The notes under the pieces were generated by a model. The model ran no database searches. It was not told the origin of the DNA and saw only the letters and a list, made by a program, of their open reading frames with translations. The position numbers and the translations under genes were made by a program. A stretch of 49,776 nt of DNA from Bacillota bacterium. Lineage in GTDB: Bacteria; Bacillota_I; Bacilli_A; RF39; UBA660. This document shows positions 40,149-49,722 of the stretch, one piece after another (positions within the stretch are counted from its first letter, which is position 1; the number at the start of each line of letters is the position of its first letter). The stretch covers positions 1 to 49,776 of the forward strand of contig SVAN01000007.1 in the NCBI GenBank assembly GCA_015059375.1. The letters run 5' to 3'.

Positions 40149-41018
40149 ATGAATAAAAAATATGTGAATTTCATCTTACTTAGTGGCGTTTTAATGATAA
40201 TTATTTTCGCTTTTGAAAAAAGCCAAATTATTGCTCTATCAGTTACAAATAGCTTTAATATCTTTATTACGCGAATTTTTCCTTTTCTATTTATTATGAT
40301 GGTCTGCAACAATCTTTTAACTTCCTTAAACTTTCCCTATTATTTAAGCAAGCTATTTCCCCACCCATATATTTATCTTTTTATTATGTCATTATTATCA
40401 GGTAGTCCGATAAATGCTGTTTTAATCAATTCTTTTATTAATCAAAAAATATTAACTCCAAAAGAAGGTAGTATTGCTCTTACATTTTCAACTTTAAATA
40501 ATCCTTTATTTTTATTAAGTTATTTTAAACTAATTTTTCTTAATCAAATTACAATCATTAAACTCTTTTTAATAATTTACCTTTCTAATTTTACTATCCT
40601 CATTTGGGCAATAAGCAAAAATCCCAAACTAAAATATCAAGCACCTATTAACCCAATAAATATTCAAAAATCTTTGATTTTTGCAATAACTAGTTCAATT
40701 AAAAATCTGATTAATATTTTGGCAATTATTACATTTTTTAAATTAATATCTGATCTTTTTATTCCTCGAGATTCTAGTTACACAATTTTAATCAAAGGCC
40801 TTATTGAACTAACTCAAGGATTAAATGCTTTACCACAATTATTATTAACAACCACAATAAAAGAATTACTGGTAATCGTAATTCTTTTATTCGCTGGTTT
40901 TTCAATTCACATTCAGATATCCAATATTTTAGCAAATCATCCGATTAATTATAAATATTTTTATTTATCTCGGCTAATCTTATGTATCTTTGGAGTAATT
41001 ATAGTTCTTAGTACATAA
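40149..41018 (+). CDS. ylbJ: YlbJ-like sporulation integral membrane protein
   Basis: A 289-aa polytopic membrane protein with about eight helices. It fits the YlbJ group of the nucleoside-recognition (Gate) family: RIFPFLFIMMV and LLSGSPINAVLIN look like the two Gate repeats, and the second half repeats the pattern around GFSIHIQI. In Bacillus, YlbJ is needed for spore cortex formation and heat resistance. The start follows ACGGAG. It is the divergent neighbour of ylbL, which supports the name. Its end overlaps the downstream pilin gene by 11 bp, tail to tail. Confidence 0.8.
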   Translation: MNKKYVNFILLSGVLMIIIFAFEKSQIIALSVTNSFNIFITRIFPFLFIMMVCNNLLTSLNFPYYLSKLFPHPYIYLFIMSLLSGSPINAVLINSFINQKILTPKEGSIALTFSTLNNPLFLLSYFKLIFLNQITIIKLFLIIYLSNFTILIWAISKNPKLKYQAPINPINIQKSLIFAITSSIKNLINILAIITFFKLISDLFIPRDSSYTILIKGLIELTQGLNALPQLLLTTTIKELLVIVILLFAGFSIHIQISNILANHPINYKYFYLSRLILCIFGVIIVLST

Positions 41019-41547
41019 CTGAGAAAACAAGATCATCGATTGTATTATTGTTATCAATTAATCTTCCGTTATGATAATATATCATATTATTTGTATTTTT
41101 GGTATAGACTTCAATATTACATTCATGAAGAGTCTTATCATAAGTTCGAACAATTTCACATTTCGGCGTTGTCGATAGCGTTCCTCCTTTAATATTCCAT
41201 TTATTTAAAATGGTAGATCCCTTCGCAAATTCTAAAATAGTATATTTTCCTTCACCATCAGCAAGAACCTGTAAAGTGTATATAACACTGCCCCCAACTG
41301 CAGACCGGAAATAAATTTTATTACCAGAGTAATTAACAGATTTAATATTTACATCCGAAGCAATTGTAGTTTCAATCTTATCAATTATTTCAATTCTTTG
41401 TTCTTGATTAACTGACGCAAAATAATCATTATCTTTTTGAAAATTTACATCCGAAAGAAGTTGATACATAAAAATCATAATTACAGATATTAAGGCTACA
41501 CTTACAATTAATTCAATAATGGAAATCCCTTTATTATTTAGTTTCAT
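41008..41547 (-). CDS. Type IV pilin-like (pseudopilin) protein
   Basis: A 179-aa protein with a prepilin signature: MKLNNKG, then ISIIELIVSVALISVIMIF, with Glu at position +5 of the predicted mature protein and a 20-residue hydrophobic helix. The remainder is a beta-rich external domain, with two cysteines near the end (TPKCEIV and HECNIEV). It is the last of three genes in a row with prepilin-like N-termini. A prepilin peptidase (PilD type) is required, but none lies in the window. Confidence 0.85.
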   Translation of the reverse strand: MKLNNKGISIIELIVSVALISVIMIFMYQLLSDVNFQKDNDYFASVNQEQRIEIIDKIETTIASDVNIKSVNYSGNKIYFRSAVGGSVIYTLQVLADGEGKYTILEFAKGSTILNKWNIKGGTLSTTPKCEIVRTYDKTLHECNIEVYTKNTNNMIYYHNGRLIDNNNTIDDLVFSVMY

Positions 41548-41558
41548 GTTTCTCCTTT

Positions 41559-42509
41559 CTATCTAATTGCTATTGTATAAGGGTTATCTTCACTTCCTGT
41601 ACCACCGACATATAATACATTTTCTTTTAAGTAAACAACTGGTCTAACCGCTAATGAAGTAGTTATTAAAGTAGTTCCCAAATTCCCAGATGCGGTTATT
41701 ATATTCATTGACGATGCGGCTGCAGACGGCGTAATTGTCCATTCTGATACATAATTAGTAAGCCAGTTATATGGTAAACAATCCCCATAGCTATAAAGAT
41801 AATTTGAACTTCTCGAGCAAGCACTAGCTAAAGAGGCAAAGCCATAATCGCTGGGATACATTAGGCCAACATTAGCAATATCACTTAGCCCGCTTTGTTC
41901 ATAATTGTATTGATTAATAAGACCACTATCATAATAATTGTTATGCGTTCCTTTTTTCCAATATACTGGTTCAATCATATCCCGACTTTGAAGTGTCAGT
42001 CTTGATGAATAATAAGTATTATTTAAATAGTTTTTAAGTAAAGATGCGCCATAATCGTTTACCGTATTATCAAATGGTAAAGTTAGATTATTGGCATTAA
42101 CACCAGAAATTGGGAGTGGCTCGGAGCGAATTATTTTAACTAATTTTTTACCGGTAATAGAATGAACACTGTCATTAAATACGCCAATAATCCGCCATTT
42201 TTCATTATTAAATACTACGTAGTTGTTAGCATTTTTGCCTTGATAACGAATTCCATATTCATCTACTACTTTCCATGCGGTTTGGCTTGAAGTCCGATCC
42301 ACAAGCGAAGTTAAATGTTCATATAAGAAATCACTACTTGCATAAGGATCATAGATTTCCGTATTTTTTTGTTTAATATCATTCTTATAAATTGTAAAAT
42401 TAAAGCGATTATTTATATATGTTGTCATCACTAATAAGAGCAATAACATAATAACAATGAAAAACGAATAAATAATCGAAATTGAAATAAACCCATTTTT
42501 CTTTATCAT
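41559..42509 (-). CDS. Pilin-like anchored protein with the surface domain shared with 48487-49722
   Basis: The N-terminus MIKKNGFISISIIYSFF has the pilin-like G|F cleavage context and a hydrophobic helix, but Ser replaces the conserved Glu at +5. The body is a domain also present in the gene at 48487-49722: RYQGKNANNYV (versus RYEGKDPDNYVWYN), WRIIGVFND (versus WRIIGVFDG), YPSDYGFA (versus YLSDYGYA) and the final RPVVYLKENV...GSEDNPY (versus RPVLYLEANV...GSAENPY). ATG at 42509 overlaps the preceding pilin gene's TGA (ATGA), showing translational coupling. Its function is unknown; a pilus-associated display of this domain is plausible. Confidence 0.75.
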   Translation of the reverse strand: MIKKNGFISISIIYSFFIVIMLLLLLVMTTYINNRFNFTIYKNDIKQKNTEIYDPYASSDFLYEHLTSLVDRTSSQTAWKVVDEYGIRYQGKNANNYVVFNNEKWRIIGVFNDSVHSITGKKLVKIIRSEPLPISGVNANNLTLPFDNTVNDYGASLLKNYLNNTYYSSRLTLQSRDMIEPVYWKKGTHNNYYDSGLINQYNYEQSGLSDIANVGLMYPSDYGFASLASACSRSSNYLYSYGDCLPYNWLTNYVSEWTITPSAAASSMNIITASGNLGTTLITTSLAVRPVVYLKENVLYVGGTGSEDNPYTIAIR

Positions 42510-43264
42510 AAATACACCCACGATAAGTAATACGCATTTTCGCACGCCATATTAAAATTGATTTTATCATCTGCATTATATTGTCTCATTTTATCTTCAT
42601 CAGTTCCAGTAGTATAATGGTTTCTTACTTTTTCTAATATACACTCAGAATATTTCCCTTTACCAACTTGAATAACGTTATTACTATCAACTGCAACATC
42701 ACCATTTTTAGCTTCATAAATAAGAGATATTAAAATTCCTTCATGATTTTTATATTTCCCGCCTGTATTGGGTACATCTAATGTCAAAATATAGTCTTGT
42801 AAATAACTAAAACCGTGGGCATTAGCAAATCTCAAAGTTGTTTTGCACTTTTGATCAGGAGTCCTTTCTCCAGTTTTAATGCAATTTTTTAACGTTTCAA
42901 TATCAGAAATTTTAAGATAAACCAATCGATAAAATTTATATAAATCTTGGGCGGCACTAATTAACGAATTGTCTTTGTAAATATCACTTTCAATATTAAA
43001 AACATAAATATACATTCTTTCGTTTACAGGAGCTAGATTCATTTTATAATCAATCGCATTATTAAATTTAGAATAATCTAAAGTTAAATCTAAAACATCG
43101 CGAATATGTTGAGTTTTATATACATAAGCAATATCATCATGATAAAGCCGGCGTTGCTCTGTTATAACAACACTGCTATATGACGAATAAAGAAAAACTA
43201 AAGTTGTCATTAAAATAACAACAGTAATGATTGTTTCTATAAATATAAATCCCTTATTATTCAT
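42506..43264 (-). CDS. Type IV pilin-like (pseudopilin) protein
   Basis: A 252-aa prepilin-like protein: MNNKG, then FIFIETIITVVILMTTLVF, with Glu at +5. The external domain is mostly helical with four cysteines (CIKTGERTPDQKC and two later). It heads the three-gene pilin-like set, from an extended -10 promoter. Its size suggests a minor pilin or pseudopilin rather than the main subunit. No pilus ATPase (PilB/PilT) or PilC gene is present here. Confidence 0.82.
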   Translation of the reverse strand: MNNKGFIFIETIITVVILMTTLVFLYSSYSSVVITEQRRLYHDDIAYVYKTQHIRDVLDLTLDYSKFNNAIDYKMNLAPVNERMYIYVFNIESDIYKDNSLISAAQDLYKFYRLVYLKISDIETLKNCIKTGERTPDQKCKTTLRFANAHGFSYLQDYILTLDVPNTGGKYKNHEGILISLIYEAKNGDVAVDSNNVIQVGKGKYSECILEKVRNHYTTGTDEDKMRQYNADDKINFNMACENAYYLSWVYL

Positions 43265-43331: not shown

Positions 43332-43550
43332 ATAAAGATAATTGGTATGGCGATGTCTGCGAACCATCGCCAGCATCAATAATTACATCGCCATTTAAAT
43401 ATAGCATTGGTCTTATAATAAATTCGTTGGTTAGTGACAAAATATGCAATACTCCACTTGAGTGTATAGAAAGCGCACTATGTAATAGTCAGAAATCGGA
43501 GATATTACCCATTCACTTTTATTAGCGTTGGCCAATAACCAATTATAGTT
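43330..43550 (-). pseudogene. Remnant of the surface-domain family (C-terminal fragment, frameshifted)
   Basis: On the minus strand one frame reads YNWLLANANKSEWVISPIS and then stops, while the adjacent frame continues SSGVLHILSLTNEF, IIRPMLYLNGDVIIDAGDGS and SPYQLSL before TAA. Together they rebuild the C-terminal part of the domain in the genes at 41559 and 48487 (compare YNWLTNYVSEWTITPS and RPVVYLKENV). A frameshift lies near 43485, and an in-frame TAG cuts off the upstream part. It kept its terminator. The remaining spacer to 43773 holds no gene apart from a hairpin at 43712. Confidence 0.8.
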
Positions 43551-48486: not shown

Positions 48487-49722
48487 CTATTTTAGTTTAT
48501 AGGGATTTTCTGCAGAGCCGTCCCCCGGCTCTATTCCTACATTTGCTTCCAGATACAAGACAGGACGCGCCGAATGATTGAAGCTGGCGCCGTGGCTGCT
48601 GACATATCCACCTGATTTGCCCAGCATAATGAACGCACCGCCGGCATAGCCAGCAATCGGAGATATAAACCATTGCATGCCGGGCGAGTATAATAACCAA
48701 TCCACCGCTCCACATGAGCCTCCATAATTATATACCGTTTCTGTATTTTCATTATTACACGAACTTCCATAGGCTGCGTATCCATAATCACTTAGATACA
48801 TTAGTCCTATTGCCGCTTCTTTAGCCGCATCTGCGTCTCCTTCGATACCATTTCTGTATCCCGCAGTTCCTGTATTTCTTTCTATTTCATACCATCCTGC
48901 TGCATATAGGGTTTTATGCGTGTCAGAATCTGTTCCTCTTAAATGCCATAGGGAATACTTTCCGTTGTGTTCTGCTATCATCTCTTGGGCTGTTGTTGAT
49001 AGCGAACTTAAATATTCACCATTTAAATATTGATTTAATGTTGAGTTTACCCAGTCGTTTTCACTTTCCAATGAATCATAAATAGAAATACAATCACCAT
49101 CGCTGTTAGCATCATCACAATCCCATGCCATTTCTGTTTCTAGTGGTGTACTTCTGGCTATCTTGGTATATTTTTTACTTGGATCTAGTCCTACATCTGT
49201 TCCATCAAATACTCCAATTATTCTCCATCTTTCACATGTTGATGTATCATTATCATCTGTGCAATTATACCATACATAATTATCTGGATCTTTTCCTTCA
49301 TATCTTACCCCATTTTGATTAACTACTCGATAAATAGAGCCATCTTGACTTGATGTATAATCTTCTGATCTTTCTAAAGCAAGAACTGTTTCTGATAAAC
49401 TCTTTTGCGTTTCCTTAAAATAAATTTTACATTCATCATTACCTTTTATTATGTATTTAATAGTTCCTAAAGCAGAATCATAATTACTAACTTTACCTCC
49501 ACCTTCGCAGTATGTTTTATTTTCATCAATACTATAGCTTCCAATTGGTACACTGTTATTTTCTATGCAATTTTCTCCGGCTAAATCACACACTAAAAAT
49601 GCCATGTTACTTTTTTTATCATTTATAAAATTTTTATTTACTACTTCATCATTTTTTCTAAAAAAAGATAATCCTAAAATTATAATTATAAATCCTAAAA
49701 TAATTATTAAAGTTTTTTTCAT
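48487..49722 (-). CDS. Membrane-anchored surface protein with hypervariable-looking C-terminus
   Basis: A 411-aa protein with a membrane anchor at about 3-22, a small Cys-containing domain (about 40-105, YCEGGGKVSNYDS), and a large C-terminal domain (about 125-411) shared with the genes at 41559 and 43330. Landmarks are WRIIGVFDG, IGLMYLSDYGYAAYG, RPVLYLEANV and GDGSAENPY. The family is common in gut Firmicutes, and its C-type-lectin-like ends are known as targets of diversity-generating retroelements. The last 70 codons differ sharply in base composition from the rest (see 48505-48725). The protein is probably exported and anchored; its ligand is unknown. A poly-T tract lies just upstream of its -10. 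Confidence 0.8.
   Translation of the reverse strand: MKKTLIIILGFIIIILGLSFFRKNDEVVNKNFINDKKSNMAFLVCDLAGENCIENNSVPIGSYSIDENKTYCEGGGKVSNYDSALGTIKYIIKGNDECKIYFKETQKSLSETVLALERSEDYTSSQDGSIYRVVNQNGVRYEGKDPDNYVWYNCTDDNDTSTCERWRIIGVFDGTDVGLDPSKKYTKIARSTPLETEMAWDCDDANSDGDCISIYDSLESENDWVNSTLNQYLNGEYLSSLSTTAQEMIAEHNGKYSLWHLRGTDSDTHKTLYAAGWYEIERNTGTAGYRNGIEGDADAAKEAAIGLMYLSDYGYAAYGSSCNNENTETVYNYGGSCGAVDWLLYSPGMQWFISPIAGYAGGAFIMLGKSGGYVSSHGASFNHSARPVLYLEANVGIEPGDGSAENPYKLK
48505..48725 (-). other. Candidate DGR variable region (GC-rich, A-depleted 3' end of surface gene)
   Basis: G+C counts per 60 bp: 26 (48481-48540), 33 (48541-48600), 33 (48601-48660), 29 (48661-48720), then 20 at 48721-48780. A on the coding strand falls to 13 and 10 of 60 in the two middle blocks. 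The coded residues GYAGGAF, VSSHGASFNH and neighbours are carried by runs of NNC/NNT codons (GTC AGC AGC CAC GGC GCC), rare elsewhere in this AT-rich genome. This is what adenine-directed mutagenesis of AAC/AAT template codons would leave. No template repeat or reverse transcriptase is in the window. Confidence 0.5.
48514..48532 (-). repeat. 7-bp inverted repeat just after the candidate variable region
   Basis: AGAGCCG and CGGCTCT enclose a 5-nt loop (GGGGA on the coding strand). It codes for EPGDGS near the protein end. Some DGRs need a small hairpin of about this size directly downstream of the variable region for target recognition. Confidence 0.55.

Follow-up and report, generated by a model that had tools for sequence, protein, structure and literature searches.

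A probable retroelement-diversified variable region in an anchored DUF6273 surface protein of a gut Bacilli genome, with many dispersed copies

The G+C-rich end of a surface-protein gene (48505-48725) is, judging from its codons, very probably the variable region (VR) of a diversity-generating retroelement (DGR) target, and would have been written by mutagenic retrohoming from one template serving many dispersed targets. Variation among the copies of this stretch is directed to adenines, the stretch is locally homogenised between copies, and intact DGRs of the same design occur in the same genus. The gene lies in the window, the whole stretch of 49,776 nucleotides analysed here, which is the entire contig C6 of a 1.01-Mb genome in 29 contigs with an estimated completeness of 71.8%. 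A sequence-only reading had proposed a DGR target in a C-type-lectin-like surface protein at this position; the within-genome copies, the template repeats of sister genomes and the DGRs of the same genus all support this proposal, the fold being assigned as probable.

Results

Composition and layout of the gene end

The gene (48487..49722, minus strand) is an open reading frame for a 411-aa anchored surface protein, starting 54 bases from the contig end. It encodes an N-terminal hydrophobic anchor, an N-terminal module of ~100 aa and a single DUF6273 domain (Pfam PF19789), for which the protein scores 29.3 bits against a gathering cut-off of 23.5; NCBIfam assigned no family to this protein. 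In the last ~70 codons the composition changes sharply, with 52.9% G+C in 48505-48725 against 29.6% in the contig. Counted in 60-bp bins from 48546, G+C reaches 34, 32 and 30, then drops to 20 one bin further upstream, so the jump reported earlier is real, while its exact counts shift with bin phase. Adenine on the coding strand was likewise correctly described as scarce, being roughly halved in the same bins (11, 10 and 12, then 24 upstream). The codons of the VSSHGASFNH run (GTC AGC AGC CAC GGC GCC AGC TTC AAT CAT) all end in C or T, as had been read.

The two flanking framework motifs are located where they had been placed, SDYGYAAYG at 48766..48792 upstream of the variable region and RPVLYL at 48550-48567, both on the minus strand. 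Between them, a 153-bp alignment to an A-rich inferred template defines a DGR-type variable region with its framework (DWLLY...RPVLYL; 48550..48702, minus strand). The span 48505-48725 stands as a composition anomaly, but its hypervariable part is narrower: codon alignment of the copies confines it to a block at about 48574..48657 (minus strand), IAGYAGGAFIMLGKSGGYVSSHGASFNH, made up for the most part of NNC/NNT codons. Codons immediately ahead of WFISP, beyond this block, may also be variable, and the remainder of the G+C-rich stretch is framework common to the copies. On the invariant side, the 3' framework SARPVLYL (48550..48573, minus strand) is near-identical in DNA across copies and occupies the place where an initiation-of-mutagenic-homing site would be expected, a role it may have.

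Predicted fold of the domain

In the AlphaFold model of the domain (window 48490-49404; pLDDT 81, pTM 0.85), the variable block falls in strands and loops at the C-terminus. By fold, the domain matches best to an IgA peptidase from Thomasclavelia ramosa, another gut bacterium, over the N-terminal part of that enzyme (Z 17.2, 208 residues, 3.2 Å). C-type lectins are among the matches at Z 5-7; since Z below 8 can be chance, the lectin assignment leans on a published structure comparison in which DUF6273 is C-type-lectin-like (PMC10743442). The fold is thus probably C-type-lectin-like, and the protein would bind a ligand, with host, neighbour or phage surfaces as candidate partners.

Copies of the variable region in the genome

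The domain has 37 matches in the genome, free of internal stop codons. The close subfamily comprises ~19 domain copies in 8 genes, with at most three in tandem per protein: four genes carry three domains (1074-1087 aa), two carry two (815 and 817 aa), a further two-domain gene is interrupted by a contig end (at least 695 aa), and the window gene, of 411 aa, carries one. In ~16 of the ~19 close copies, the C-terminal stretch consists of identical or similar framework codons alternating with NNC or NNT codons; beyond the window copy there are about fifteen such tails, in the seven other genes. Three close copies (L017, L018 and L019) do not fit this design, and ordinary A/T-rich codons were seen in two of them. 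The G+C content of the stretch is high in every close copy (0.53-0.64), and framework DNA is near-identical between copies whose flanks diverge.

The window also holds a cluster of three neighbouring genes with prepilin-like N-termini (41008-43264, minus strand). The middle one (41559..42545, minus strand) is a DUF6273-like paralogue without the DGR codon pattern, which served as a negative control; its product may be a minor pilin tipped with a lectin-like domain. A decayed DUF6273 C-terminus (43339..43543, minus strand), with frame breaks and weak DNA and protein matches, lies in the intergenic space upstream of these genes. It was considered as a template repeat and rejected, being a decayed domain end and not an AAC/AAT-rich copy.

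Codon-position and adenine signature

Between copies, pairwise differences at codon positions 1, 2 and 3 are 0.177, 0.139 and 0.293 upstream and 0.418, 0.466 and 0.235 in the segment, so that the third position, the most divergent upstream, becomes the least. Of the 272 third bases compared at 17 hypervariable codons, 230 are C or T, the pattern expected of codons of AAY origin. Third-base divergence among the best-preserved copies falls from 0.26 upstream to 0.10 in the segment and climbs to 0.44 beyond it. Two tandem domains of one protein differ at 114 of 600 bases upstream (19%) and at 23 of 57 downstream (40%); within the segment, with sites sorted by the inferred template, they differ at 1 of 84 non-A sites and 21 of 39 A sites.

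The inferred template, with AAC or AAT at the variable codons, was drawn by eye from the copies of this genome only. Against it, the mismatches of three copies fall at A in 24 of 24, 23 of 24 and 20 of 22 cases; these counts, and the A/non-A split of the tandem pair, are partly circular because the template comes from the same copies. Not circular, or much less so, are the flip in codon positions, the position of sister template-repeat adenines, the retrieval of sister template repeats (both below) and a leave-one-out test. In the latter, a rule-based template was built from the other copies, the window copy being excluded; 26 of the 34 differences of the window copy fall at an inferred A and 8 elsewhere (Fisher p = 5e-9). 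In the freshest copies, differences are confined or nearly confined to adenines of the inferred template (24/24 and 23/24); those of the window copy are enriched at A without being confined to it (8-9 non-A).

The freshest copies have 0-2 changes at the 84 non-A sites of the inferred template while their flanks differ by 10-20%, and homing would therefore have been very recent. The window copy, with 9 non-A mismatches, exceeds the freshest copies; it looks older and has possibly escaped recent homing. The codon pattern as a whole is what a single template would leave after being copied again and again with errors at its adenines. We know of no other process that gives such a pattern.

Intact retroelements in relatives

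The same genus contains DGRs in which a reverse transcriptase (RT) follows the target gene and a template repeat (TR). In three such genomes (G002, G005 and G009), the mismatches at template A are 17/17, 11/11 and 15/15. Their RTs carry GxxxSQ and YMDD motifs, and the stretch separating template and RT encodes an Avd homologue (NF033474, E 3e-11, significant but under the curated cut-off) and a protein resembling MutS domain I. The targets share a framework of the IGLMY-SDYGY...RPVLYL type; two of them were scanned against Pfam, and only that of G002 matched DUF6273, below the cut-off.

In the template repeats of G009 and G002, adenines fall on the hypervariable columns of the present genome (11/14 versus 1/28, p = 9e-7 each). 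Used as a DNA query, the inferred template picked out real DGR template repeats in three sister genomes and passed over the variable regions adjoining them. Across 386 sampled genomes of the family, its best matches outside this genome are AAC/AAT-rich, template-like repeats, with an RT within the short stretch examined for 5 of 10. Many members of the family have RT genes of roughly 300-500 aa. A protein search of genome contigs with the window protein alone as query returned no relatives, whereas an alignment as query recovered them. An A-biased repeat pair was the basis for choosing 13 of 79 named loci from related Bacilli metagenome-assembled genomes (MAGs); an RT lies nearby in 12 of the 13.

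The loci L082 (G002), L085 (G009) and L083 (G005), all from uncultured gut Bacilli, resemble the window gene in target family, C-terminal VR and RPVLYL-type 3' framework, and their AAC/AAT-codon templates have a near-identical framework order. They differ in that RT, Avd, the MutS_I-like gene and TR accompany the target, and in having few fresh targets each; the window genome has ~16 VRs in 8 genes, and its RT was not found.

Several further arrangements were observed in relatives. Two DGR-type RTs (L087, 7774-9261; L063, 743-2119) have, by eye, a MutS_I-like C-terminus and are possible RT-accessory fusions. The template-repeat 5' flank occurs a second time in G002 (L218, 889-1045), joined to a DUF6273 gene end in a 1.2-kb stretch from which an RT is absent; this copy is possibly a decayed or satellite template. 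A second DGR type, whose target end has an NRGGS/HRGG-like framework and is not DUF6273, occurs in G005 (L084) and in a family relative (L097). One further genome (G356) has two similar template-like repeats on two contigs (L312 and L318).

Search for the retroelement in the genome

The sequence-only reading had looked to an RT and a template repeat elsewhere in the genome; the search found neither and, with 71.8% of the genome assembled, neither confirms nor refutes the reading. A DGR-type RT was not found in this assembly with PF00078 or with an alignment of sister RTs, for which G002, G005, G008 and G009 served as positive controls. Avd, detected in four sister genomes, was likewise not found in the assembly, and the inferred template matched VR-like copies only. 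RT and template were not found in the window either, and 30 short loci of this genome contain no per-gene template repeat beside a target. Virus contigs searched with the protein and two DNA patterns gave no match, which is weak evidence given the strictness of the patterns. With 28% of the genome unassembled, the absence of RT, Avd and template is uninformative either way, and present DGR activity is accordingly unproven.

A same-genus genome, G007, is in the same state at 94% completeness: 15 regions (among loci L233-L252) match one inferred template, whose framework is unlike that of the present genome, and neither RT nor Avd was found in it. Recent loss, or an element that escaped binning, is therefore worth taking seriously.

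Discussion

The segment at the end of the window gene is best explained as follows. A DGR RT would copy a template repeat of ~100-150 bp made up of framework codons and AAC/AAT codons, with misincorporation opposite template adenines during cDNA synthesis. By mutagenic retrohoming, the cDNA would then take the place of the corresponding 3' end in DUF6273 genes. Each homing event would leave framework DNA and C/T third bases intact and randomise the first two bases of the variable codons; with the third bases kept, residues of the probably C-type-lectin-like fold would vary and stop codons would never arise. One template, or close versions of it, would have written ~16 variable regions in 8 genes, some with two or three per protein. 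RT and template would lie in the 28% of the genome that the assembly lacks, or on an element left out of the bin, and diversification may be continuing at present.

This last point is where a competing account has a real, if minority, chance. A DGR may have written the regions in a recent ancestor and then been lost, the copies since then only drifting, duplicating and recombining; such a frozen state competes with the presence of an RT today, not with a DGR origin. It agrees with the failure to find RT or Avd here and in G007 with its 15 regions, with the few fresh targets seen in each RT-bearing relative, and with the ordinary A/T-rich codons of some domains in the same arrays. The scarcity of non-A changes in the freshest copies, set against their divergent flanks, points instead to very recent homing and argues for a DGR that would have been active until very recently, and 28% of the genome is missing from the MAG. 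There is also a slim chance that some gut Bacilli without an RT of their own keep a tandem and dispersed VR repertoire that is either rewritten by a passing mobile DGR or frozen and shuffled by recombination.

An origin without any retroelement, through diversifying selection and gene conversion among the ~19 paralogues, is very improbable. Many tandem paralogues do offer scope for recombination, but selection on amino acids would not fix third bases as C or T, keep adjoining framework codons identical in DNA, or put variation at the adenines of template repeats in sister species; gene conversion alone is rejected on this codon-level evidence. That the stretch is a foreign or conserved domain end of unusual composition, as 53% G+C within a 30% G+C contig might suggest, has next to no chance, given that it is less conserved at the protein level than any other part of the domain, is G+C-rich in all close copies and shares its framework with sister DGR template repeats, and foreign origin is refuted by the codon-level comparison.

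Several elements of the DGR reading have precedents. Tentaclins (PMC10743442) and Faecalibacterium prophage targets (PMC11792537) are phage DGR targets with DUF6273, like the window protein, and in the Faecalibacterium prophages the VR also lies at the DUF6273 C-terminus. Those systems are phage-borne with one or two targets, whereas the present one comprises anchored bacterial surface proteins in many copies with tandem domains. The DGRs of Thiohalocapsa PB-PSB1 (PMC10907252) and multi-VR DGRs (PMC6642488) are alike in having several VRs per protein, dispersed targets, some loci without their own RT, and diversification in trans; trans-acting DGRs, with one template and dispersed targets, have been inferred elsewhere (PMC10907252). 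Thiohalocapsa PB-PSB1 differs in phylum, in its conflict-system targets and in having RT and TR in the genome. The Treponema denticola DGR (PMC4891356) is alike in serving many targets and differs in target family and in their number, up to eight (number via PMC10743442). DUF6273 DGR targets, multiple VRs per protein and action in trans are thus already published (PMC10743442, PMC11792537, PMC6642488, PMC10907252). As far as could be found, what is new is how extensive the repertoire is in a gut Bacilli genome of 1 Mb, together with its arrays of tandem lectin-like domains; a literature search for papers naming DGRs together with RF39 found none.

Surveys restricted to the neighbourhood of the RT miss dispersed targets, as one survey acknowledges for its own method (PMC8144416). 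In conclusion, on the DGR reading, small-genome uncultured gut Bacilli would give over many of their anchored surface proteins to diversification by DGRs, with as many as three diversified domains in a single protein. Two questions can be put to this genome in concrete terms: how a single template supplies so many targets, and whether a variable repertoire persists once its retroelement is gone.
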